Below, piece after piece: positions 19,550 through 31,042 of a DNA stretch of 64,000 bases. Origin of the DNA: Streptomyces sp. cg36 (lineage in GTDB: Bacteria; Actinomycetota; Actinomycetes; Streptomycetales; Streptomycetaceae); assembly GCF_041080675.1 (NCBI RefSeq), contig NZ_CP163520.1:6101001-6165000 (forward strand). Direction: 5' to 3'. How positions within the stretch are numbered: position 1 is the stretch's first letter; the number at the start of each line of letters is the position of its first letter. Made by a program: the position numbers and the translations under genes. A model generated the notes under the pieces. It had not been told where the DNA came from. It searched no databases and saw nothing but the letters and a program-made list of their open reading frames with translations.

Positions 19550-20830
19550 ATGTCGTACAACGACCCGTACCTGATCGTTTCCTCCGACTGCCACGCCGGG
19601 CTGCCGACCGAGCGGTACCGGCCCTATCTGGACTCCCGCTTCCACCGGGAGTTCGACGAGTTCCTCGACGGGCGCGACCGCCGCCGCGCGGAGATGACCC
19701 GGCTGGGCATCCGCAACGAGGCGTTCGCCGACCAGTGGTTCGCCGACAACGAAGAGGGCCTGAAGGGCGGTTGGGAGCCAGACCGGCGGCTCAAGGAGCT
19801 GGACGGCGACGGGGTGGCGGCCGAGGTCGTCTTCCCCGACGCGGACGCCGTCGACAGCCGGACCGCCGCGCCCTTCGGGGTCGGACTCGGCCTCTCCGGC
19901 GACCAGGACCCCGACCTCGGCATGGCGGGTGCGCAGGCGCACAACCGCTGGCTCGCCGAGTTCGTCGGCCACCACCCCGAACGGCACTGCGGGGTCGCGC
20001 TGCTCCCGGTCACCGGCGAGGTGGACCGGGTGGTCGCGGAGATCCACCGGGCCAGGGAGTCCGGTCTCGGCGCGCTGATGATCCCCTCGATGTGGGTGGA
20101 CCGGGCCCCGTACCACGACCGCCGCTACGACCCGGTGTGGGCGGCGGCGGCCGAGGCCGGGATGCCGCTGGTCACCCACTCGGGCGCGGCCCCCCGCCAC
20201 GAGTACGGCGACCACCTCGGCATCTACGTCAGCGAGGTCACCTGGTGGCCCGCCCGCCCGCTGTGGTTCCTGCTCTGGTCCGGGGTCTTCGAGCGCCACC
20301 CCGGGCTGCGGTTCGGGGTCGCCGAGTCGGGCTGCTGGTGGCTGCCGAACCTGCTGTGGTTCATGGACCGGCTCTATCTCGGCGCGCACGGCGGCAAGAA
20401 GCTCTCGCCCTTCGCCGAGCTGAAGCGCCCGCCCAGCGAGTACCTGGACCGCCAGCTGTTCGTCTGCGCCACCAACACCAAGCGCCGCGAGCTGGCCCAG
20501 CGCTACGAGATCGGCGTCGACAACATCCTGTGGGGCTCCGACTTCCCGCACCCCGAGGGGACCTGGCCGCACACCCGGGAGTGGCTGCGCAAGACCTTCC
20601 ACGACATCCCGGTCGCCGAGACGCGCCGGATGCTGGGGCTCGCGGCGGCCGAGGTGTTCGGCTTCGACACCGCGAAGCTGGCCCCGCTGGCCCGGCGCAT
20701 CGGACCGACCCCGGCCGAACTGGGCCAGAGCGAGGACCAGCGGGCCGTGGAGGCGTCCTGGGCGCGCTCGCGGGACGTGGGCCGCCACTGGCTGACCGAC
20801 CACGACTTCCCGGTCCTGGGGGCGTCATGA
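19550..20830 (+). CDS. Metal-dependent amidohydrolase family protein (first of tandem pair)
   Basis: 426 residues from ATG 19550. TIM-barrel Amidohydro_2 (PF04909 type) signatures: VSSDCHAG at 10-17 (Asp13, His15 in place of the canonical HxH), THSGAAP with His210, and WGSDFPHPEG with Asp331 as the catalytic metal ligand. This subfamily includes ACMSD-like decarboxylases and ring-fission hydrolases. Ends in an ATGA overlap with the paralogous next gene. The pair suggests consecutive C-C or ring hydrolysis steps, or a heteromer; both are inferences. Confidence 0.88.
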   Translation: MSYNDPYLIVSSDCHAGLPTERYRPYLDSRFHREFDEFLDGRDRRRAEMTRLGIRNEAFADQWFADNEEGLKGGWEPDRRLKELDGDGVAAEVVFPDADAVDSRTAAPFGVGLGLSGDQDPDLGMAGAQAHNRWLAEFVGHHPERHCGVALLPVTGEVDRVVAEIHRARESGLGALMIPSMWVDRAPYHDRRYDPVWAAAAEAGMPLVTHSGAAPRHEYGDHLGIYVSEVTWWPARPLWFLLWSGVFERHPGLRFGVAESGCWWLPNLLWFMDRLYLGAHGGKKLSPFAELKRPPSEYLDRQLFVCATNTKRRELAQRYEIGVDNILWGSDFPHPEGTWPHTREWLRKTFHDIPVAETRRMLGLAAAEVFGFDTAKLAPLARRIGPTPAELGQSEDQRAVEASWARSRDVGRHWLTDHDFPVLGAS

Positions 20831-22056
20831 GCGGCGACCGCTACACGGTGATCTCGGCGGACTGCCACGCGGGCGCCGACCTGCTCGACTACAAGCCGTA
20901 CCTGGAGAAGCGGTACCACGACGACTTCGACGCCTGGGCCGCCACCTACGTCAATCCGCACGAGGACCTGCTGGCCGACACCGCCGACCGCAACTGGAAC
21001 TCCGACCGGCGGGTGGCCGAGCTGGAGGCGGACGGGATCGTGGCGGAGGTGGTGTTCCCCAACACCATCCCGCCGTTCTTCCCCTCCGCCTCCCTGCTGG
21101 CCCCCACCCCCACCCGGGAGGAGCTGGAGCGGCGCTGGGCGGGGCTGCGGGCGCACAACCGCTGGCTGGCCGACTTCTGCGCGCTGGTGCCGGGCCGTCG
21201 GGCGGGCGTCGCGCAGCTCCTGCTGAACGACGTCGACGCGGCGGTGGCGGAGATCCACCGGGTGCGGGAGGCGGGACTGACCGGCGGCGTCCTGCTGCCC
21301 GGCGCCCCGCCCGGCTCGGGGGTGCCCGAGCTGTACTCGGAGGTCTACGACCCGATCTGGGCGGCCTGCGCCGAACTCGGCCTCCCGGTCAACCACCACG
21401 GCGGATCCGCCTCCCCGCCGCTGGGGGAGGAGCCGGCCGCGCGGGCCGTCTTCATGGTGGAGACGACCTGGTTCTCGCACCGGGCCCTGTGGCACCTGAT
21501 CTTCGGCGGCGCCTTCCACCGCCATCCGTCGCTGCGGCTCATCCTCACCGAGCAGGGCTCGGGCTGGATCCCGGGCGTCGTCGAGATGCTCGACTACTAC
21601 CACGAGCGGCTGGTGTCGGCGGCGACCCGGGCGGCGACGGCCGAGTCCAAGTTCGGCGCGGGCCTGGCCGAGTCGATGGGCCGGGGACCGGGCGAGGTCT
21701 GGCGCGACAACTGCTACGTGGGCGCCAGCTTCATGCGCCCCCACGAGGTGCCGCTGCGCGACCGGATCGGCCTGGACAAGATCATGTGGGGCAGCGACTA
21801 CCCCCACGACGAGGGCACCACCCCCTACTCCCGCGAGGGCCTGCGCATCGCCTACGCCGGGCTGCCCCGGGACGAGGTGGCCGCGATGGTGGGCGGCAAC
21901 GCGGCCCGCGTCTACGGCTTCGACCTGCCCTTCCTGGACACGATCGCCGCCGGGGTGGGCCCGGGCGTCGAGGAGGTCGCCGAACCGCTGGAGGAGGTCC
22001 CGGCGGACGCCACGAGCCCGGTCTTCGCGCGGGGCGGGTCGGTACGGGTGTGGTGA
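20827..22056 (+). CDS. Metal-dependent amidohydrolase family protein (second of tandem pair)
   Basis: 409 residues from ATG 20827, translationally coupled to the previous gene through ATGA. Same fold and motifs: SADCHAG (Asp12, His14), VNHHGGSA (His190/191), WGSDYPHDEG (Asp324). It resembles the first copy in order of motifs but is clearly diverged, so the duplication is old. The C-terminal 40 residues are acidic and variable. Last gene of the putative catabolic operon before the VIT transporter. Confidence 0.88.
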   Translation: MSGDRYTVISADCHAGADLLDYKPYLEKRYHDDFDAWAATYVNPHEDLLADTADRNWNSDRRVAELEADGIVAEVVFPNTIPPFFPSASLLAPTPTREELERRWAGLRAHNRWLADFCALVPGRRAGVAQLLLNDVDAAVAEIHRVREAGLTGGVLLPGAPPGSGVPELYSEVYDPIWAACAELGLPVNHHGGSASPPLGEEPAARAVFMVETTWFSHRALWHLIFGGAFHRHPSLRLILTEQGSGWIPGVVEMLDYYHERLVSAATRAATAESKFGAGLAESMGRGPGEVWRDNCYVGASFMRPHEVPLRDRIGLDKIMWGSDYPHDEGTTPYSREGLRIAYAGLPRDEVAAMVGGNAARVYGFDLPFLDTIAAGVGPGVEEVAEPLEEVPADATSPVFARGGSVRVW

Positions 22057-22081
22057 CGCGGCGGGTGAGACCCTTCACCGC

Positions 22082-22822
22082 ATGACGGACGCACGGACGC
22101 CGGACGCCGGGAGCTCCCCCGAGGGCCACGACGAGGCCCACGGGGGCGCGCTCGGCGCCCGGCTGAACTGGCTGCGGGCCGCCGTCCTCGGCGCCAACGA
22201 CGGCATCGTCTCCACGGCGGGCCTGGTCGTCGGCGTGGCGGGCGCCACCGACGACCGCTCGGCCCTGCTGACGGCGGGCCTGGCGGGCCTGCTCGCCGGC
22301 TCGATGTCGATGGCGGCCGGCGAGTACGTCTCCGTCTCCACCCAGCGCGACTCCGAGAAGGCCGCGCTCGCCCAGGAGCGGCGCGAGCTGCGCGAGGACC
22401 CGGAGGCCGAACTCGCCGAGCTGACCGAGCTGTTGCAGGGGCACGGCCTCAGCGGCGAGCTGGCCCGCGAGGCGGCCGAACAGCTCACCGAGCGCGACGC
22501 GCTGCGCGCCCACGCGCGCGTGGAGCTCGGCATCGACCCCGACGAGCTGGCCAACCCCTGGCACGCGGCGGCGGCCAGCTTCCTGGCCTTCACGGTGGGC
22601 GCCCTGCTGCCGCTGCTGGCCATCGTCCTGCCGCCGTCCTCGGCACGCCTGTACGTGACGGTCGGCTCGGTCCTGGCCGCCCTGGCCGCCACCGGCTGGT
22701 GGAGCGCCCGCCTGGGCGCGGCCCCGGTGGGGGCGGCGGTGCTGCGGAACGTGGGCGGGGGCGCGGTGGCCATGGGGGTGACCTATGCGGCGGGGGCGCT
22801 GCTGGGGGCGGCGGGGGTGTGA
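22082..22822 (+). CDS. VIT family (VIT1/CCC1-like) membrane transporter
   Basis: 246 residues from ATG 22082. Five predicted membrane helices with the VIT1/CCC1 hallmarks: LRAAVLGANDGIVSTAGLVVGVAGA in helix 1, AGSMSMAAGEYVSVSTQRDSE at the end of helix 2, and a cytoplasmic acidic helical segment (QERRELREDPEAELAELTELL) that in plant VIT1 binds metals. These proteins export Fe(II)/Mn(II) or sequester them. Only 25 nt after the amidohydrolase operon, but not obviously part of its function. Its stop is 3 nt from the convergent NACHT gene's stop. Confidence 0.92.
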   Translation: MTDARTPDAGSSPEGHDEAHGGALGARLNWLRAAVLGANDGIVSTAGLVVGVAGATDDRSALLTAGLAGLLAGSMSMAAGEYVSVSTQRDSEKAALAQERRELREDPEAELAELTELLQGHGLSGELAREAAEQLTERDALRAHARVELGIDPDELANPWHAAAASFLAFTVGALLPLLAIVLPPSSARLYVTVGSVLAALAATGWWSARLGAAPVGAAVLRNVGGGAVAMGVTYAAGALLGAAGV

Positions 22823-22825
22823 GGG

Positions 22826-25800
22826 TCAGGGGCGGGTCCGCTGGATCCTGAGCCGCTCCGGAGGGATGCGGTCGGCGCCGGTCAGGGTGAGGTCGTCGGG
22901 CACGCTGACGGTGAGCGCGGGCAGGTCCCCCAGCGGTGCCAGGTCGACCGGCCCCCCGGCCGTCGTCGACCGGGAGAGCGACACTCTGGTCAGCCGGGGG
23001 AAATCGCGCAACGCCCCCAATCCAAAGGGGAGTTCGCACTCGGACAGGGACAGCGACTGAAGCTCGGTGGCGCCCGCGAACAGTCTCGGATCGAGGAATT
23101 CGATCTCTTGCAGCTCCAGCCGGGTCAGCCGTCCGAGCAGGTCGGGCAGCTCGCTCAGTTCCCGCAGCTGCGCCTGGCCGGAGAGTGCGAGGTCGGTGAG
23201 GAGCGGCCACCGGTCGATCCCGTCGAGGCTCGCGTACCGGATCTGGCGTTCGAGCCGCAGCCCGGCCAGCCGTGGCCCCAGGGGCAGTTCGGCGAGGCTC
23301 TCGATGAGCAGGGGGTGGCCGATCCCGACGGTCCTGATGTCGGTCGCCTCCCGCAGGGGCTCCAGCGAGAGCTCCGGATCGAGCATGTGCAGGGAGATGT
23401 GTTCGAGACCGGGCCTGGCGACGGGTGACAGGTCCCGCAGTGCCGAACACCGGTTCAGATCCAGCTGTTTGAGCCGCCGGAGCGAGGCCAGCGGGGTGAG
23501 GTCGGTGAGATCCAGACTGCCGTAGAGGGAGACCCGTTCCACGTCCGGGACCAGGGTCAGCGGGGTGAGGTCCGAGTGGCTGCCGGTCACATGGACCAGC
23601 CGGATCTGGGGCACCAGCCGCAGGGCGTACAGCTGCTCCTCGGTGGTGGCGGTCAGGAACGCCATGTCCCACGACCGTGCCGCCAGCACCTCGCGCGCGT
23701 ACTCCTCGGTGTCGAAGGCTCCCCAGGCGGCCGAGACCTGGAGGGCCACGGGCCACCGGCGGTCCTCCCGGAACCGCGAGATCACCTCGAACGCCGCGTC
23801 CCCCCGGATCGCCGCGGCCGTCCGTACCACCGCCCCCGCCTCGTACTCGTCCAGCCCGTCCGGGCCCGGCAGCAGTTCGAGGACCAGTTCGCCCACCTTC
23901 GCCAGCTTCTCCGCGTCGTCCAGGCCGCGCGGCGGCAGCAGTTCGCGGGTGCGGGCCTGGACGGACTGGCGGATCGCCGGGTCCAGCTCGGGCGCGTGCT
24001 CCAGGCAGGCCGCCGCCAGCAGCACCAGCCGGTGCCGCAGCTTGGGGGCCCGGTCGGCCCGTCTGAGCAACTGCTTGAGCAGCCGGGCCCGTTCGTCCGC
24101 GCGCGCGTGGCCCACCGCCATCTGGACCACGTCGTCCCAGGTGTCGTCGTGCGCGTTGGCTGCGAGCACGCCGAAGTCGCGGGACTCCACCGCCGCCTTC
24201 GCGCCCAGGTAGTCCTGGAAGGTGCGGTGCACGAAACCCACGGTGCCCGGGGCCGGTTCGCGCAGCAGTCCGCTGCGGATCAGGAGGTGGGCGAAGACCT
24301 GCTCCGGGGTGCCCCGCACCTGCGGCATCGCCGTGAGCCAGTCGGCGATCATCTCCCTGGCCTCGCCGTGCTCGGCCTCCACCTGGGCGTTGCGGATCAG
24401 CCAGTAGGCGAGCCGCTGCAGGAGCGCGGTCTGCTCCTCGCGGGTGAGCTCGACACCCTCCACGCCCGTGATCTCGCGTTCGGTGTCCCGCCGTACGAGC
24501 AGCATGTCCAGGGCCGCGTCGTACAGCTCCTTCCTGGCGCGCGGCAGCTGCATCCGGCGGTCCCGGTTGAGCGCGCACAGCAGGGCGCACATCAGCGGGT
24601 TGGTGGCGAGCCGGCCCAGATCGCGGCGGCTGCCGACGGCCTGGCGCAGCGAGGTCTCGTACGTGGCGAGCTGGGCGCGCTCGGGGTCGGCCAGGCACTC
24701 GCCGCGCGCCGCGTCGTGCCAGTGCCCGATGAAGCGGCGGATGTCGTCCCGCTCCATCGGCAGCAGCGAGTGGGCGGCGAAGCCCTGCCGGGAGAGCCAG
24801 TCCACGGGGACGGCCGAGGGGCGGGTGGTGACGACGTACCGGGCGTTCGGGTAGGCGGCGATCAGGGATTTCAGCCAGGTCTCGGTGCGGTGGCGCAGCC
24901 GGGTGGGGACCTCGTCGACGCCGTCCACCAGGACGAGCGCCCGTCCGTCGGCGAGCATCCGCTCGACCCATCCGGCGGGCGCCGCCCCGTGCAGCGGCAC
25001 CCCGCCCGCCCGGAGGAAGTCGTCGGGCAGCGGGAGCGCGTCGGCGTGGGTGAAGGCGCGCAGCCGCAGCACGAAGGGGACGCACCGGTTCCAGTCCGCC
25101 AGCTCCCCGGTGAAGGTGCGCCGGGCGGCGTTCAGGGCGAGCCACTGCACCAGCGTGCTCTTGCCGGAGCCCGCGGGGCCGCGCAGCACCAGCCGGTCGG
25201 CGCCCGCGAGCGCCTGCTCGGCCTTGACGGCGACCTGGTCGCCGCGGGCGGGCCCGAAGTCCCCGCGCTCGCCGCTCACCGCGAGGCTGATGTAGGCGGT
25301 GTCGAGCGCCCACTCGCCGCGCGAGCGGCCGAGGGTCAGCCCGAAGAGTTCGAGGCGTCCGTGCGTCTCGGTCACATAGGCCGCGTACCGCTCCTCGAAG
25401 CCCAGGGCCGTGGCCTGCGGCCGCGGGCCGAGCCGGTCGCGCACCTCGGCCACCAGCCCGTACGTCCGCCCCGCCGCCCGCACCTGCTCCACCGCGGCCC
25501 GGGCGGCGAACGCGGGGTGCGCGGTCAGCTGCTCCACCACATGGGCGCAGCACAGCCCGAGCAGCTCCTCGTAGAGGGCCCCGCCCGGTCCCGGGTGCGG
25601 GCGGCGCAGCGCGTCCCGCAGCCGCTCGGGGTCCAGGCCGAGCGAGAACAGGTACTCCGGGGTGAGCTCGCCCGCCGCCGCGAGCGCGTCCGCCACGGCG
25701 TCCGCCGCCGCCGTCCGCTCGTGCTCCGGCAGCGGGCCGTACCCGGCCGCCAGGCGGCGCCCGAGCACCTTCGCCAGCCGTTCCGGCGAGGCGGGCCCCG

Positions 25801-25921
25801 GCAGCCGGCGGACCGGGGCGGGCACCAGGCCCGCCCCCGGCTTCGGGCTCAGCAGCGACTTGGCGACGGTGGAGACCACCGTGCCGGCCAGCCGTAAGAG
25901 TGCGACTTCCATGCCTGACAC
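22826..25921 (-). CDS. NACHT-domain NTPase with C-terminal leucine-rich repeats (bacterial NLR-like)
   Basis: 1,031 residues from GTG 25921, chosen because GGAGG lies 9 nt upstream; an ATG three codons later (25912) is 18 nt from it. Layout: N-terminal helical effector-like domain (about 1-205) beginning VALLRLAGTVVSTVAKSLLS; NACHT domain with Walker A GPAGSGKST (248-256, Lys254) and the NACHT-type Walker B LVDGVDEV (Asp333, Asp336, Glu337); STAND-type arm with FVHRTFQDYLGAKA (about 563-576); helical region; then irregular leucine-rich repeats (about 768-1008, for example LTDLTPLASLRRLKQLDLN and SLSECELPFG). Several bacterial NACHT proteins of this build are antiphage sensors; this one lacks a neighbouring effector gene, so any output would reside in its own N-terminus. 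Cytosolic. Confidence 0.9.
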   Translation of the reverse strand: MSGMEVALLRLAGTVVSTVAKSLLSPKPGAGLVPAPVRRLPGPASPERLAKVLGRRLAAGYGPLPEHERTAAADAVADALAAAGELTPEYLFSLGLDPERLRDALRRPHPGPGGALYEELLGLCCAHVVEQLTAHPAFAARAAVEQVRAAGRTYGLVAEVRDRLGPRPQATALGFEERYAAYVTETHGRLELFGLTLGRSRGEWALDTAYISLAVSGERGDFGPARGDQVAVKAEQALAGADRLVLRGPAGSGKSTLVQWLALNAARRTFTGELADWNRCVPFVLRLRAFTHADALPLPDDFLRAGGVPLHGAAPAGWVERMLADGRALVLVDGVDEVPTRLRHRTETWLKSLIAAYPNARYVVTTRPSAVPVDWLSRQGFAAHSLLPMERDDIRRFIGHWHDAARGECLADPERAQLATYETSLRQAVGSRRDLGRLATNPLMCALLCALNRDRRMQLPRARKELYDAALDMLLVRRDTEREITGVEGVELTREEQTALLQRLAYWLIRNAQVEAEHGEAREMIADWLTAMPQVRGTPEQVFAHLLIRSGLLREPAPGTVGFVHRTFQDYLGAKAAVESRDFGVLAANAHDDTWDDVVQMAVGHARADERARLLKQLLRRADRAPKLRHRLVLLAAACLEHAPELDPAIRQSVQARTRELLPPRGLDDAEKLAKVGELVLELLPGPDGLDEYEAGAVVRTAAAIRGDAAFEVISRFREDRRWPVALQVSAAWGAFDTEEYAREVLAARSWDMAFLTATTEEQLYALRLVPQIRLVHVTGSHSDLTPLTLVPDVERVSLYGSLDLTDLTPLASLRRLKQLDLNRCSALRDLSPVARPGLEHISLHMLDPELSLEPLREATDIRTVGIGHPLLIESLAELPLGPRLAGLRLERQIRYASLDGIDRWPLLTDLALSGQAQLRELSELPDLLGRLTRLELQEIEFLDPRLFAGATELQSLSLSECELPFGLGALRDFPRLTRVSLSRSTTAGGPVDLAPLGDLPALTVSVPDDLTLTGADRIPPERLRIQRTRP

Positions 25922-26102
25922 GGCAGTTGACCTCCAAGGGCCCCGGAGGAGGGGAATCCTACGCCGGTGGTCCGGCGCTCTCGCGGCGGACGGCGGACCG
26001 TCCTCGGCGCGCAGCCGCTCCTGGCACAGGCGTACGGTGAGATCCGGACACCGGTGCGGCCGGATCCGGACCATCCCGTATCGATCAGCAAGGACCTGCC
26101 CC

Positions 26103-27146
26103 ATGCGCGCCACCGTCATCCACGCCCCGCACGACATCCGGGTGGAGGAGGTGGCCGACGCCGCCGTGCGGCTGCCCACCGACGCCGTGGTGCGGGTGCT
26201 GCGGGCCTGTATCTGCGGCAGCGACCTGTGGGCCTACCGGGGCGAGGCCGCCCGTCAGCCGGGGCAGCGGATCGGGCACGAGTTCCTCGGCGTGGTCGAG
26301 GACGCGGGCTCCGAGGTGAGCGGCTTCCGGGCCGGTGACCTGGTGGTCGCGCCCTTCATGTGGTCCGACGGCAGCTGCGAGTACTGCGCCGAGGGCCTCC
26401 AGACGTCCTGCACACAGGGCGGGTTCTGGGGCTCGGTGGGCTTCGACGGCGGCCAGGGCGAGGCGGTGCGGGTGCCGTTCGCCGACGGCACGCTCGTGAA
26501 GCTGCCCGCCGAGGCGGCCTCCGACGACCACCTCCTGACCGCCCTGCTCGCCCTCTCCGACGTGCTCGGCACCGGCCACCACGCGGCCGTCGGCGCGGGC
26601 GTGGGGCGCGGCTCCACGGTCGCCGTCGTCGGCGACGGGGCCGTCGGGCTCTGCGGGGTGCTGGCCGCCAAGCGGCTCGGCGCCGAGCGGATCATCGCGC
26701 TGGGGCGCCACCAGGTCCGTACCGACATCGCGCGGACCTTCGGCGCCACCGACGTCGTCGCCGAGCGCGGCGAGGCCGCCGTGGACGCGGTGCGCGAGCT
26801 GACCCGGGGCCAGGGCGCGCACGCCGTCATCGAGGCCGTCGGCACCGAGCAGTCGATGCGCACGGCCGTGGAGATCACCCGCGACGGCGGCTCCATCGGC
26901 TACGTCGGCGTCCCGCACGGCAGCGGCACCGGTCTCGACCTCGGCCTCATGTTCGACCGCAACATCTCGCTGCGCGGCGGCGTCGCCCCCGTCCGCGCCT
27001 ACATCCCCGAGCTGCTCCCGGACGTGCTGTCCGGCGCGGTCGACCCGTCGCCGGTCTTCGACCTGACGACGGGCCTGGACGGCGTCCCCGCCGGATACAA
27101 GGCGATGGACGAGCGCACCGCCCTGAAGGTGCTGATCAAGCCGTAG
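26103..27146 (+). CDS. Zinc-dependent alcohol dehydrogenase family protein
   Basis: 347 residues from ATG 26103. Medium-chain dehydrogenase: catalytic zinc ligands Cys38 (ICGSDLW) and His59-Glu60 (GHEFLG); NAD(P)-binding VGDGAVGLCGVLAAKRLGA. The structural-zinc lobe has three of the usual four cysteines (Cys92, Cys95, Cys103); the first is Asp89, a variant seen in part of the family. Divergent from the NACHT gene, separated by 181 bp with no other ORF. Substrate unknown; threonine/polyol-type or formaldehyde-type roles cannot be distinguished. Confidence 0.9.
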   Translation: MRATVIHAPHDIRVEEVADAAVRLPTDAVVRVLRACICGSDLWAYRGEAARQPGQRIGHEFLGVVEDAGSEVSGFRAGDLVVAPFMWSDGSCEYCAEGLQTSCTQGGFWGSVGFDGGQGEAVRVPFADGTLVKLPAEAASDDHLLTALLALSDVLGTGHHAAVGAGVGRGSTVAVVGDGAVGLCGVLAAKRLGAERIIALGRHQVRTDIARTFGATDVVAERGEAAVDAVRELTRGQGAHAVIEAVGTEQSMRTAVEITRDGGSIGYVGVPHGSGTGLDLGLMFDRNISLRGGVAPVRAYIPELLPDVLSGAVDPSPVFDLTTGLDGVPAGYKAMDERTALKVLIKP

Positions 27147-27182
27147 GACGGCCGCCGGGCCGGGCCCGCGGTCCCGTGGTGT

Positions 27183-27212
27183 GGGGCCGGGCGGAGTGAT
27201 CCGCCCGGCCCC
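27183..27212. terminator. Bidirectional terminator hairpin
   Basis: GGGGCCGGGCGGA (27183-27195) and TCCGCCCGGCCCC (27200-27212) form a perfect 13-bp stem with a GTGA loop between the convergent dehydrogenase and protease genes. Confidence 0.85.
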
Positions 27213-27252
27213 CGTCCGCCCGGCCCCGGTGGGCGGGCCGGGTCCGGCCGGT

Positions 27253-28794
27253 TCAGCGCACGGCGTTGAGGGCGTTCACGACGCCCGCGCCGTAGAACCC
27301 GCTGTGGTGCCTGCCGCCCTCGCAGACCGCGTCCGCCTTGCCGTCCCCGTCGATGTCGTACGGGTCGGGGCAGGCGGTCGGGTCCGCGCCCGCCGCCAGC
27401 AGCGCCTTGATCTTCCAGGCGGGCGCGTGCGGATGCGCCGACTTCAGGAGCGCGGCCACCCCCACCACGTGCGGGGTCGCCATCGACGTGCCCGCCATGT
27501 AGGCCCACTTGCCGCCGGGCACCGGGCCCAGGATCAGCCCGCTGGTGGCGGGGGCCTGCGGCGGCTGGTACGCGGTGGAGTCGCCGCCGGGCGCGGCCAC
27601 GTCGATCACGCCCAGGCCGTAGTTGGAGAACGAGGACTTCAGCCCCTTGGCCCCGGTCGAGGCGACCGTGACGACCCCCGGCAGCTGGGTCGGGATGTCG
27701 AAGCACCGGCTCGGGTCGATCGTGCGGTCGCCGGGCGTGCTGTCGTTGGGGCTGGCCGGGTCGGTGATCGAGTCGGCCGCGAGGTCGTAGCTCTCGTTGC
27801 CGGCCGCGGCCACGTTCACCGTGCCCTTGGACTCGGCGTACCGGCTGGCCCGGGTGATCGCCTCGACCAGCGCCTTCTGGTCCGGGTCGGCCGTGCAGTT
27901 GAAGTACCAGGGGTCGGTGTAATAGCTGTTGTTGGTGACGTCGATGCCGTGGTCGGCGGCCCACATGAAGCCGCAGACGACGGCCTCCGTGTAGAAGAAG
28001 CCGCCGCCCTGGGTCGCGACCTTGATGGCGGCGACCTTCACCCCGGGCGCCACCCCGGTCACGCCGACGCCGTTCTTCGCCGCGGCTATCTCGCCCGCCA
28101 CGTGCGTGCCGTGCGGGGAGCCGCCGGTGGCGAACGGCCGCCAGGCGCCGTCGCTGGTGTCCGGCTTGCCGCCGATGCAGCTGACCGACTTGGCGCGGTC
28201 GAAGTTGGGCGCGATGTCGGGGTGGGTGTCGTCCACGCCCGTGTCGATCACGCCCACGGTGACCCTGGAGCTGCCCAGGGTCTTCTCGTGCGCCTTGTCG
28301 GCCTTGATGGCCTTCAGGTCCCACTGGAGCGGCTCCAGCGGGTCCTCACCGGCGGCGGCCCCGGCGGAGGCGGCCCGCACCTCCTCGGCGGTGAGCTCCT
28401 TGGGCGCGCCCACGTCGGTGGTGCTCTGGGCGGGCAGCGGCGCGGTCCTGGTGGCCCCGGCCGACGCCACGCCCCGGACCGCCCGCAGCTTCTTGGCGAA
28501 GTCGGGGTCGGCCGAGTGGACGACGACCACCCCGATCCGGTCGTACGCCTGCACGACCGTCCCGCCGGCCGCCTCGATCGCTTTGCGGACCCGGGACGAA
28601 TTCCCCTGTCCCTCGCGGAGGTTGACGACATAGCTGAGCGTGGCCGCGTCGGCCGGAGCGGCCGACGCCCTGGTGGCCGCCTCGGCGGCGGGCGCCGCCG
28701 AGGCCGCGCCCGGCAGGATGGCCAGGGCCGTGATCGTCGCCATGCCGACGGATGCGGCGATCACGCGGTGCGTACGGGAGAAGTGCAACGTCAT
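27253..28794 (-). CDS. Secreted S8 family (subtilisin-like) serine protease
   Basis: 513 residues from ATG 28794. Sec signal peptide (about residues 1-33, cut after AASA), an inhibitor-I9-like propeptide to about residue 155, then the catalytic domain with the full triad: Asp184 (VIDTGVD), His228 (SPHGTHVAG) and Ser437 (GTSMATPH). A C-terminal segment with DPYDIDGDGKADAVCEGG resembles a calcium-binding or Cys-bridged loop. Extracellular endopeptidase. Directly downstream of a paralogue with nearly the same architecture. Confidence 0.95.
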   Translation of the reverse strand: MTLHFSRTHRVIAASVGMATITALAILPGAASAAPAAEAATRASAAPADAATLSYVVNLREGQGNSSRVRKAIEAAGGTVVQAYDRIGVVVVHSADPDFAKKLRAVRGVASAGATRTAPLPAQSTTDVGAPKELTAEEVRAASAGAAAGEDPLEPLQWDLKAIKADKAHEKTLGSSRVTVGVIDTGVDDTHPDIAPNFDRAKSVSCIGGKPDTSDGAWRPFATGGSPHGTHVAGEIAAAKNGVGVTGVAPGVKVAAIKVATQGGGFFYTEAVVCGFMWAADHGIDVTNNSYYTDPWYFNCTADPDQKALVEAITRASRYAESKGTVNVAAAGNESYDLAADSITDPASPNDSTPGDRTIDPSRCFDIPTQLPGVVTVASTGAKGLKSSFSNYGLGVIDVAAPGGDSTAYQPPQAPATSGLILGPVPGGKWAYMAGTSMATPHVVGVAALLKSAHPHAPAWKIKALLAAGADPTACPDPYDIDGDGKADAVCEGGRHHSGFYGAGVVNALNAVR

Positions 28795-28859
28795 GGAAGC
28801 TCCATGTGGTTGGCGGATGTCTCGGTACGTACGGGAACGTGCGGTGGGGCCGCGGGCCG

Positions 28860-30377
28860 CTACTCGGTGACCGCGTGGAGCGCGCTCACCACGCCCCGGC
28901 CGTAGAAGCCGTTGACGCGCTTGCCGCCCTCACAGGTGGAGTCCTGCACCCCGTTGCCGTCCGGGTCGTACAGGCCGGTGGGGCAGCCCGGGTTGACGGC
29001 CTGCTCCTTGAGCAGCTGCCGCAGCTCGGCCGGGGACGCCCACGGGTGCTTGGACTTCAGCAGCGCGGCGACGCCCACCACGTGCGGGGTGGCCATCGAG
29101 GTGCCCTGCTTGTAGCCGTACTGCCCGCCGGGGAGCGTCGAGAGGATGCGGCCGTTCTTGTCCGGGGTGTCCGGGATCTGGTACTTGTCGCCGCCGGGCG
29201 CCGCCACGTCGACCTGCCCCAGGCCGTAGCTGGAGTAGTACGACTTGATGCCCTGCACGCCGGTCGCGGAGACCGTGACGACCCCGGGCAGCTGGGCCGG
29301 GATGTCGGGGCAGAGCGCCGGGTCGACGGTGGTCTGCGGGTGCGGCGCGGGCTGGTCGTCCGGGCTGCTGGTGTCGGTGATGGCGTGCTTGGACAGGTCG
29401 TAGTTCTCGTTGCCCGCCGCCGCCACGTTCAGGACGCCCTTGTGCTCGGCGTACCGGGTGGCCCGGGTCACCGCGTCGAGCAGCGCCTTCTGGTCCGGGT
29501 CGCTCTTGCAGTTGAAGTACCAGGGGTCCACGTAATAGCTGTTGTTGGTGACGTCGATGTGGTGCTCGGCGGCGAAGACGAACCCGCAGACCACGGCCTC
29601 GGTGAAGAACAGCCCGCTGCCCTGCTCGGCGACCTTGATCCCGGCCACCTTGACGCCCGGCGCGACACCGGCCACGCCGATCCCGTTGCGGGCCGCCGCG
29701 ATCTCGCCCGCCACGTGCGTGCCGTGGTCGCTGCCGCCCACGTACGGCCGCCAGGCGCCCGGCGAGGTGTCCGCGACGCCGCCCACGCAGTTGGCCGACT
29801 GGGCGGCGGAGAAGTTGGGCGCCAGGTCCGGGTGGGTGTCGTCGACACCCGTGTCGATCACGCCCACGGTGACCCGGCGGCTGCCCGGATAGATCGTGGC
29901 GGCCTTGTCGGCGCCGATCGCCCGCAGGTCCCACTGGTTGGCCTCCAGCGGCTCCTGGCCGGGCCCGGCGGCGGCCGTGGCCCGGGCCGCCTCGGCCGGG
30001 GTGAGGGTCTGGGTGCTGCCCTCCTCGGTGGTGGCCAGCGACTTCAGGGGCGCGGTGCGGGTGGCGCCGGCCGAGGAGACGCCCCTGGCCCGGCGTATCT
30101 CCTGGGCGAACGCGGGGTTCGAGGAGTGCGCCACGACCACGCCTATCCGGTCGTACGAGACGACGACCGTGCCGCCCGCCTTCGCTATCGCCTTCTGCAC
30201 CCGTGCGGAAGTGCCGTGCCCGCCCGTGGTGTTGACCACGTACGACAGGTTCGGGCCATCGGCGGCGGCCGGGGCGGCCGAGGCCGTGCCCGCCGGCAGG
30301 AAGCCGAGCGAGGCCGTGAGCGCGAGGCCGGCGGGGAGGGCGAGGGCCCGACGCCGTCCGGATCCCAGATGAGCCAT
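28860..30377 (-). CDS. Secreted S8 family serine protease (tandem paralogue)
   Basis: 505 residues from ATG 30377. Signal peptide (MAHLGSGRRRALALPAGLALTASLGFLPAGTASA region), propeptide, and catalytic triad Asp175, His218, Ser427. Long blocks are shared with the 27253-28794 protein (TNNSYY.DPWYFNC, QLPGVVTV, GTSMATPHVVGVAALLKS.HP), so the two arose by tandem duplication. The 65-bp spacer contains no obvious terminator; cotranscription is likely. Different surface residues suggest different substrate preference. Confidence 0.95.
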   Translation of the reverse strand: MAHLGSGRRRALALPAGLALTASLGFLPAGTASAAPAAADGPNLSYVVNTTGGHGTSARVQKAIAKAGGTVVVSYDRIGVVVAHSSNPAFAQEIRRARGVSSAGATRTAPLKSLATTEEGSTQTLTPAEAARATAAAGPGQEPLEANQWDLRAIGADKAATIYPGSRRVTVGVIDTGVDDTHPDLAPNFSAAQSANCVGGVADTSPGAWRPYVGGSDHGTHVAGEIAAARNGIGVAGVAPGVKVAGIKVAEQGSGLFFTEAVVCGFVFAAEHHIDVTNNSYYVDPWYFNCKSDPDQKALLDAVTRATRYAEHKGVLNVAAAGNENYDLSKHAITDTSSPDDQPAPHPQTTVDPALCPDIPAQLPGVVTVSATGVQGIKSYYSSYGLGQVDVAAPGGDKYQIPDTPDKNGRILSTLPGGQYGYKQGTSMATPHVVGVAALLKSKHPWASPAELRQLLKEQAVNPGCPTGLYDPDGNGVQDSTCEGGKRVNGFYGRGVVSALHAVTE

Positions 30378-30676
30378 GGGTTCTCCACATCATCCGTCAG
30401 AGCCGTCCGCCCGCGGTCGCGGGTGGACGGGTACATGACCAGCGAAGCTATCGCTGATCATGCTGGCTCATCAACGAGTTGGGACGTCTCGGTCCGAGAA
30501 CGTTGTGCGAGCGCTGTGAAGGAACCCGGGGCGCGGGCGCGGAGAAAAACGACCGGTCTGAACCGAGACGCGACGCCCTCCGTGCCGTTGTCAGGGGGAC
30601 CACCATCACCCCGTCCCCGACAGTGAGGTCCCCCTTGACGTCCATCCCCACCGCACCCGCACCGCGAGGAGACTCC
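30378..30676. promoter_or_regulatory. Divergent intergenic region between protease and symporter operon
   Basis: 299 bp with no convincing gene. It holds GGGGGACC (30594-30601) and GGTCCCCC (30627-30634), an 8-bp inverted repeat with a 25-nt spacer just upstream of the symporter operon, plus an A-rich patch (GAGAAAAAC, 30542-30550). Promoters for both directions should lie here. Confidence 0.5.
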
Positions 30677-31042
30677 GTGGCCACCGACGCGCCACCGCCC
30701 GAGGGCGGCATCGACACCCGCCCCGCCCAGCCCCCCACCGAGAAGTTCGTCGAGGTGCAGGCGAGCGAGGAGTTCGCCGAACTGCGCCGCACCCACCGCC
30801 GGTTCGCCTTCCCGCTCACCGTCGCCTTCATCGGCTGGTACCTGCTCTACGTCCTGCTGTCGAACTACGCGGACGGCTTCATGGGCCACAAGCTGTTCGG
30901 CAACATCAACGTGGCGCTCGTCTTCGGCCTCGCCCAATTCCTCACCACCTTCCTCATCGCCTGGTTCTACTCGCGGTACGCGGCCACCAAGCTCGACCCG
31001 CGCTCCGAGGCGATCAAGTCCCGCATGGAGGCCGACGCATGA
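30677..31042 (+). CDS. DUF485-type small membrane protein
   Basis: 121 residues from GTG 30677, with GAGGAGA 4-5 nt upstream. A hydrophilic N-terminus precedes two membrane helices (FAFPLTVAFIGWYLLYVLLS and VALVFGLAQFLTTFLIAWFY) and ends with a basic-acidic tail. DUF485 proteins are nearly always cotranscribed with acetate-type sodium symporters, as here (ATGA overlap with the next gene). Probably a subunit or regulator of the transporter. Confidence 0.9.
   Translation: MATDAPPPEGGIDTRPAQPPTEKFVEVQASEEFAELRRTHRRFAFPLTVAFIGWYLLYVLLSNYADGFMGHKLFGNINVALVFGLAQFLTTFLIAWFYSRYAATKLDPRSEAIKSRMEADA

Follow-up and report, generated by a model that had tools for sequence, protein, structure and literature searches.

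The gene at 22826..25921 of the window (the whole stretch of 64,000 nucleotides from Streptomyces sp. cg36 that was analysed) encodes a NACHT protein with leucine-rich repeats (LRR) that stands alone in a core chromosomal setting, and the question it raises is whether such a protein serves as a resident immune sensor or in some other capacity. The original prediction placed a frame in this interval and gave no strand; the frame exists and lies on the minus strand, where its GTG is at 25921 and its stop at 22826-22828, giving a product of 1031 aa. The same frame is also possible from an earlier start (1117 aa in the program's list of open reading frames), and reading through the plus strand across the interval of the gene gave stops. 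Three domains were indicated by Pfam: NNH1 at aa 8-159 (1.5e-26, 94 bits against a curated cut-off of 27 bits), NACHT at aa 243-404 (7.2e-25, 88 bits, above cut-off) and LRR_4 at aa 804-834 (9.5e-7, 29 bits against a cut-off of 27). Of 7990 scored, 1967 were homologues at E<=0.001, so that this architecture is not due to chance; NNH1 and NACHT occurred together in all 120 homologues listed with precomputed Pfam domains, and LRR_4 in part of them. The N-terminal domain that had originally been left undefined is Pfam NNH1. The features of the locus are as follows.

22826..25921, minus strand: NNH1-NACHT-LRR gene, 1031 aa (open reading frame and Pfam).
25931..25935, minus strand: GGAGG, likely ribosome-binding site, 9 nt 5' of the GTG (sequence reading).
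25427..25921, minus strand: N-terminal module, aa 1-165 (NNH1 aa 8-159), all helical (Pfam and model).
25850..25918, minus strand: helix 1 (aa 2-24), a hydrophobic segment of net positive charge and a candidate membrane helix.
25787..25849, minus strand: linker, aa 25-45, with a conserved PGAGLV motif and lower model confidence.
25202..25426, minus strand: pre-NACHT region, aa 166-240, common to HTH- and trypsin-type paralogs.
24710..25195, minus strand: NACHT NTPase domain, aa 243-404 (Pfam).
25154..25180, minus strand: Walker A, GPAGSGKST, aa 248-256.
24908..24937, minus strand: Walker B region with DGVDE, aa 329-338.
24122..24691, minus strand: helical HD1 and winged-helix region, so named by analogy with NLRs, aa 411-600, including H565 in FVHRTFQDYLGA.
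23690..24121, minus strand: second helical region, aa 601-744, in which divergence begins to rise.
22829..23689, minus strand: LRR domain, aa 745-1031, hypervariable, with 11 strands in the model.
22082..22822, plus strand: VIT1-family gene, convergent, its stop 3 bp from that of the NACHT gene; one flank of the syntenic site.
26103..27146, plus strand: zinc-binding alcohol dehydrogenase gene, divergent, 181 bp from the start of the NACHT gene; the other flank of the site.

From about residue 168 onward (aa 168-1031), the modelled structure best matched the animal NLRs NLRC4, NOD2 and NLRP3, with identities of about 12-22% in these structural matches. The NACHT domain carries both Walker motifs (A and B) together with the sensor residues and is followed in the model by a winged helix, a second helical domain and a C-terminal LRR with 11 strands between residues 775 and 1008, which is the order of domains in an NLR. 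The two kinds of protein differ at the N-terminus, where NNH1 is predicted to occupy the position in which NLRC4 carries its CARD (CARD or PYD in animal NLRs). Six residues, K254, D333, D336, E337, R367 and H565, were invariant across 55 aligned full-length orthologues, the window protein included. The NLR build originally proposed (an N-terminal helical domain, NACHT with DGxDE, and LRRs) therefore agreed with both Pfam and the predicted structure, and the residue numbers given for K254, D333 and E337 were correct. Bacterial NACHT proteins with LRRs are already known as NLRs (bona fide bacterial NLRs in the accessible part of PMC12169576), as is NNH1 as a named domain. Antiphage bNACHT proteins share the tripartite STAND build, as far as the accessible text describes them, but bNACHT25 and bNACHT32 are given there as having a PD-(D/E)XK nuclease and NCH1, whereas the window protein has NNH1 and LRR and occupies a fixed core site; clade 14 bNACHTs are said in the same part of that source to lack a readily discernible effector domain (PMC12169576).

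Of 21 loci examined in other genomes, 20 shared the same syntenic neighbourhood. Markers of the site were SURF1/GH15 or SDR-amidohydrolases-VIT1 on one side and ADH, S8 peptidase, DUF485-ActP and MoaA on the other, not all of them present in each of the 21 loci, and at least one marker was seen within the stretch covered in 51 of a second set of 58 named loci. Among the neighbours examined, none of the genes beside the NACHT gene was that of a toxin or an effector. An orthologue-like match (at least 51% identity over most of the length) was present in at least 38 of 296 Streptomyces genomes and any match in at least 228, both counts being lower bounds since two candidates were scored per genome. 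In 15 selected genomes without the gene, the site was still bordered by SURF1 and, at its opposite end, by S8-DUF485-ActP, and 14 of these genomes contained no trace of the gene by tblastn; an 84-residue remnant lay between the flanks in G004 (locus L172). Four further reduced copies were noted in the named set, retaining only aa 279-469 (L153), only aa 1-187 (L154) or aa 1-56 and 194-283 (L155, S. xanthochromogenes JCM 4612), while the fourth (L148) was without aa 1-246 and 366-580 and yet kept a frame of 865 codons. Thus, the core chromosomal, stand-alone setting originally described holds for the site, but the gene itself is accessory.

The C-terminal end of the protein diverged far more than the rest. 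Mean pairwise identity among 20 orthologues was 0.56 for NNH1, 0.73 for NACHT, 0.70 for the helical part that follows and 0.36 for the LRR, and the differences were greater still in single pairs. Thus, L022 and L023 were 97% identical in NACHT (dS 0.04) as opposed to 39% in the LRR (dS 0.85), and two proteins both named S. xanthochromogenes (P0120 and P0121) reached 99.8% identity across aa 1-600 as opposed to about 50% in the LRR. Core dS was below 0.35 in 26 pairs among the 55 orthologues, from which 13 disjoint pairs were built; LRR dS exceeded core dS by more than 1.5-fold in 10 of these and flanking-gene dS by the same factor in 10 of the 12 with flanks (one with only 236 flank codons), and no LRR excess was seen in 3 of the 13. 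Divergence of the flanking genes tracked that of the core, as between the window and S. melanogenes (L099), where dS was 0.20 for the core, 0.23 for the neighbours and 0.59 for the LRR. The onset of divergence depended on the pair and fell at about codons 600-740, in the second helical region. In the protein set that includes P0120 and P0121, which was clustered at 90% identity, the LRR was below 0.7 in 68% of 301 pairs, a value that is not a rate because pairs with near-identical cores must, after such clustering, differ somewhere; the set with one genome per species is free of this bias, although its peptide patterns were derived from the query. These findings indicate that close relatives, with the gene at a single genomic position, have often exchanged or heavily altered its sensing end, a history suggestive of a resident immune sensor and not of a gene with a housekeeping role.

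Since synonymous sites in the LRR rose along with the protein differences, replacement by diverged alleles fits better than fast protein change alone. In the clustered set, 72 sequences had a neighbour in the core above 0.95, and for 21 of them another sequence was clearly closer in the LRR (for example, P0155 and P0164, core 0.87, LRR 0.89). Comparison of core and LRR trees revealed contradiction of 8/26 and 11/34 supported splits, and the corresponding values for halves of the same region were 2/26 and 2/18 in one case and 1/26 and 1/22 in the other. For full regions, the lnL gap was 870 for the LRR alignment on the core tree and 463 for the core alignment on the LRR tree, while the alignment of the second LRR half showed a gap of 393 on the core tree as opposed to 86 on the tree of the first LRR half; control gaps were 151 for a core half on the tree of the other half and 365 for NNH1 on the core tree. 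The AU test was set aside as sole proof of recombination, because the within-core and within-LRR controls were rejected too, and only the size of the tree conflict is therefore informative. The conflict of NNH1 with the core tree indicates that exchange extends beyond the LRR and that the whole gene is somewhat mosaic; NNH1 may have its own history as well. Origin of the diversity from a diversity-generating retroelement (DGR) was also considered and rejected. No reverse transcriptase occurred at the gene (RVT_1 was found only at distant places in the genome), and a search for template-like repeats in window positions 20000-31000 returned, for the gene, only short weak pairs (25 nt within the LRR; 36 nt with one copy in the NNH1 part). 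With neither a reverse transcriptase nearby nor a clear template repeat, homologous recombination is the likely source.

Given the LRR divergence and a fixed site that is empty in other genomes, the resident immune sensor of the original prediction is the best, though indirect, reading of the locus: on balance, and by a slight preponderance, we consider the product a putative NLR-type immune sensor with phages as its most likely target, and the best reading of its history is that sensor specificity is renewed by recombination. In such a sensor, the variable exposed face of the LRR, or the LRR together with the second helical region, would bind a protein derived from or altered by the invader; binding would relieve autoinhibition, the NACHT NTPase would exchange ADP for ATP, and the protein would then assemble into an NLRC4-like ring. 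Clustering of the NNH1 domains by the ring would provide the output, either through membrane insertion of helix 1 or through recruitment of a partner, and the infected hyphal compartment would cease growth or die. Specificity would be renewed when homologous recombination brings in diverged alleles of the 3' part of the gene and leaves the promoter, NNH1 and NTPase where they are. If this is correct, a bacterial NLR shows the population behaviour of hypervariable plant and fungal NLRs (a constant switch and output, a renewable sensor and null alleles, all at one site), and the orthologues form a natural allelic series for testing ligand, switch and NNH1 output in Streptomyces, by which the question of what bacterial LRRs target becomes directly testable.

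With respect to output, no fold match to the NNH1 domain was detected in a structure search for an effector fold, no effector family was indicated in the protein by Pfam, and NNH1 had no listed match to a known effector fold. NACHT proteins with Pfam NNH1 (PF22733) have both domains in common with the window protein, but the NNH1 of the window clade is more diverged (94 bits versus 173-200 bits in nine other proteins scanned). NNH1 matches were present in 19 of 398 genomes of the phylum, 13 of them from the same genus. The reading of NNH1 as a HEPN RNase was dropped, as no R-x4-6-H motif, the motif of these RNases, was seen by eye in conserved columns. Helix 1 is, from its sequence, a candidate membrane helix. 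Its mean 19-residue hydropathy was the highest (1.40 versus 1.07 over 46 sequences; 1.55 versus 1.09 in the window protein), a mean below usual transmembrane values, and another stretch exceeded it in 4 of the 16 sequences listed. NNH1, in which no catalytic fold was detected, may instead recruit a partner encoded elsewhere; it is also possible that sensing and output reside within one polypeptide, which the original prediction took as a necessity.

Searches against defence and mobile-element collections were largely negative. PADLOC 2023 assigned no family (best match mad8 at 0.014), and no NCBIfam family scored above its cut-off (EruA, 19 bits, E 2.8e-4, cut-off 1000 bits). None of 50,697 phage records matched the window protein by tblastn; a phage family with unassigned function, phrog_18297, matched aa 176-575 at 1.2e-12 and is read as containing distant NACHT relatives. 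By sequence, the window LRR matched internalins. Plasmid records matched in 83 of 72,556 cases, and among the 30 plasmid matches listed, one was 59% identical over 97% of the query. This homologue, annotated as two overlapping frames, is on a 616 kb linear plasmid near transposase genes, a location that would suit a defence aimed at plasmids, toxins of competitors or further insults besides phages, by the same logic of sensor, switch and output. The molecular evidence for an immune sensor applies equally to such a defence, but nothing points specifically to a trigger of that kind, and we regard it as unlikely.

Allorecognition or kin discrimination is an improbable explanation. The LRR would in that case read a polymorphic partner carried by other mycelia or strains, and death would limit exchange between unlike hyphae by a logic like that of fungal het genes. 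Near-identical cores with diverse LRRs in P0120 and P0121, two proteins of one named species, and the occurrence of a single gene at a fixed site in some genomes but not in others are features expected of such a system. However, the flanking genes that were compared track core divergence, so that none of them looked like a polymorphic partner, and hyphal fusion of the fungal type is, to our knowledge, not known in Streptomyces. A broader version, in which the gene is a polymorphic specificity locus of a multicellular bacterium, with LRR cassettes exchanged between strains, null alleles, and discrimination of mycelial self from non-self in the manner of fungal het NLRs, beyond phage sensing alone, appears about as improbable. 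Fungal HNWD NLRs, according to the accessible part of PMC12222747, have hypervariable sensor-repeat sites under diversifying selection on a predicted interaction surface, and this resemblance also speaks for allorecognition; they differ in that their repeats are WD40 with the known partner HET-C, whereas the repeats here are LRRs. DGR-diversified NACHT/STAND sensors, as given in the available portion of PMC10907252, likewise belong to multicellular bacteria and vary in their C-terminal sensor, but in those proteins retroelements alter a lectin domain whereas here it is the LRR that varies, in a pattern that fits recombination. A fixed-site bacterial NLR with exchanged LRR alleles and null alleles was not found described in literature that included the accessible parts of PMC12169576, PMC13236601, PMC8195603, PMC7159879, PMC13092281, PMC10907252 and PMC12222747, which is not a claim of its absence from print.

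A further alternative is a developmental or metabolic STAND regulator, AfsR- or MalT-like. Scanning of 18 related NACHT proteins, hand-picked rather than sampled at random, identified N-terminal domains of different types on related cores: NNH1 in 9, an XRE-type HTH in 5, Trypsin_2 in 3 and none in 1. The window genome contains one of each of the three types: the window gene, which is its only NNH1 match, an HTH-type paralog (L032, G000:C1 3341237-3344194) whose related NACHT-LRR core bears an XRE-type HTH, and a Trypsin_2-type paralog at 3.55 Mb (L187); L188 is a more distant NACHT protein of the same genome. When the window protein is aligned with the HTH and trypsin types, the match starts between aa 140 and 175, as would be expected if the output were formed by approximately aa 1-165. 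If the immune sensor reading is true, NNH1 gains a testable context, as HTH and trypsin domains replace it on related cores. The HTH paralog speaks in favour of a regulator, and Streptomyces does employ the STAND-type regulator AfsR (accessible part of PMC10936776). On the other hand, Pfam indicated no HTH or other DNA-binding domain in the window protein, orthologue-like matches are confined to the minority of Streptomyces genomes counted above, five remnants or reduced copies occur in situ, and sensor divergence is far beyond the need of a regulator of a fixed pathway. From this patchy presence, decay and lack of a DNA-binding domain, the developmental regulator offered in the original prediction was not borne out and is distinctly improbable.

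It is just as doubtful that LRR divergence largely reflects relaxed constraint in a decaying, dispensable gene with no specific recognition role, for although gene loss and remnants, a GC3 lower in the LRR than in the core (54 of 55 orthologues) and a dN/dS below 1 at exposed positions would suit it, the NTPase residues are invariant, synonymous sites jump too, which protein-level relaxation alone does not yield, and hydrophobic strand positions vary little (0.84-1.24 bits, dN/dS 0.35) whereas exposed ones vary strongly. The latter difference was evident when repeats were aligned on the strands of the predicted model. Mean entropy at exposed strand positions 0, +2 and +4 was 3.02 bits versus 2.12 bits for the rest, hydrophobic strand positions excluded, the hydrophobic positions being the lowest of all. 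Values of dN/dS were 0.72 at exposed LRR positions (CI 0.58-0.85, resampling pairs), 0.42 in the rest of the LRR, 0.28 in NNH1, 0.18 in NACHT and 0.12 in HD. Positive selection on the LRR was dropped as an explanation since the value at exposed positions is below 1. Variation of the exposed face is as would be expected for a ligand-binding face under changing demands, which is not proof of positive selection. Outside the exposed positions, offset -3 (2.84 bits) was as variable as exposed position +2 (2.81 bits).

Two paralogs with a related NACHT-LRR core were noted in the genome from which the window was taken, and in each the position occupied by NNH1 in the window protein was taken by another domain:

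L032:7238-10195 (contig C1 3341237-3344194), paralog with an XRE-type HTH domain instead of NNH1
L187:2846-6277, paralog with a trypsin-like peptidase domain instead of NNH1

In homologues located near the ends of sequence records, alignment to the window protein started only at about residues 160-174. Such homologues included that of locus L033 (genome G262), which lies close to both ends of that genome's contig C1, and, among the matches listed, those on plasmids NZ_CP108984, NZ_CP108633, NZ_CP109560 and NZ_CP109328. Their distances to the ends were 2.6-23 kb, these being ends of records and not necessarily of linear replicons, and the L033 homologue, the one scanned of this group, was of the HTH type. 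In other Streptomyces, related NACHT genes occurred in adjacent pairs (L063, L067, L069, L071, L077 and L081).

Within NNH1 of the window protein, a PGAGLV..PVR motif was conserved in the linker that follows helix 1 (window 25787-25849), a region of lower model confidence despite this conservation.

The VIT1 and NACHT genes are convergent (window 22082-22828), and because their stop codons are only 3 bp apart, the two transcripts may overlap. Upstream of the NACHT gene, many relatives (L043-L061) carried extra divergent genes. Judged by eye, one product is probably a hydroxylase of the sterol-desaturase type and another resembles YhhN; the corresponding interval of the window, 25921 to 26103, is too short for such genes. 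Also noted in the window was the following feature:

27253-30377, minus strand, two adjacent subtilisin-like frames

These frames were approximately 60% identical to each other, and the first, the only one scanned, was assigned to Peptidase_S8.

Reverse transcriptase domains were present in the same genome away from the NACHT gene, and one pair of these matches, at two places in the genome, gave identical scores:

contig C1, 1030761, reverse transcriptase domain
contig C1, 8537667, reverse transcriptase domain
contig C2, 227942, reverse transcriptase domain
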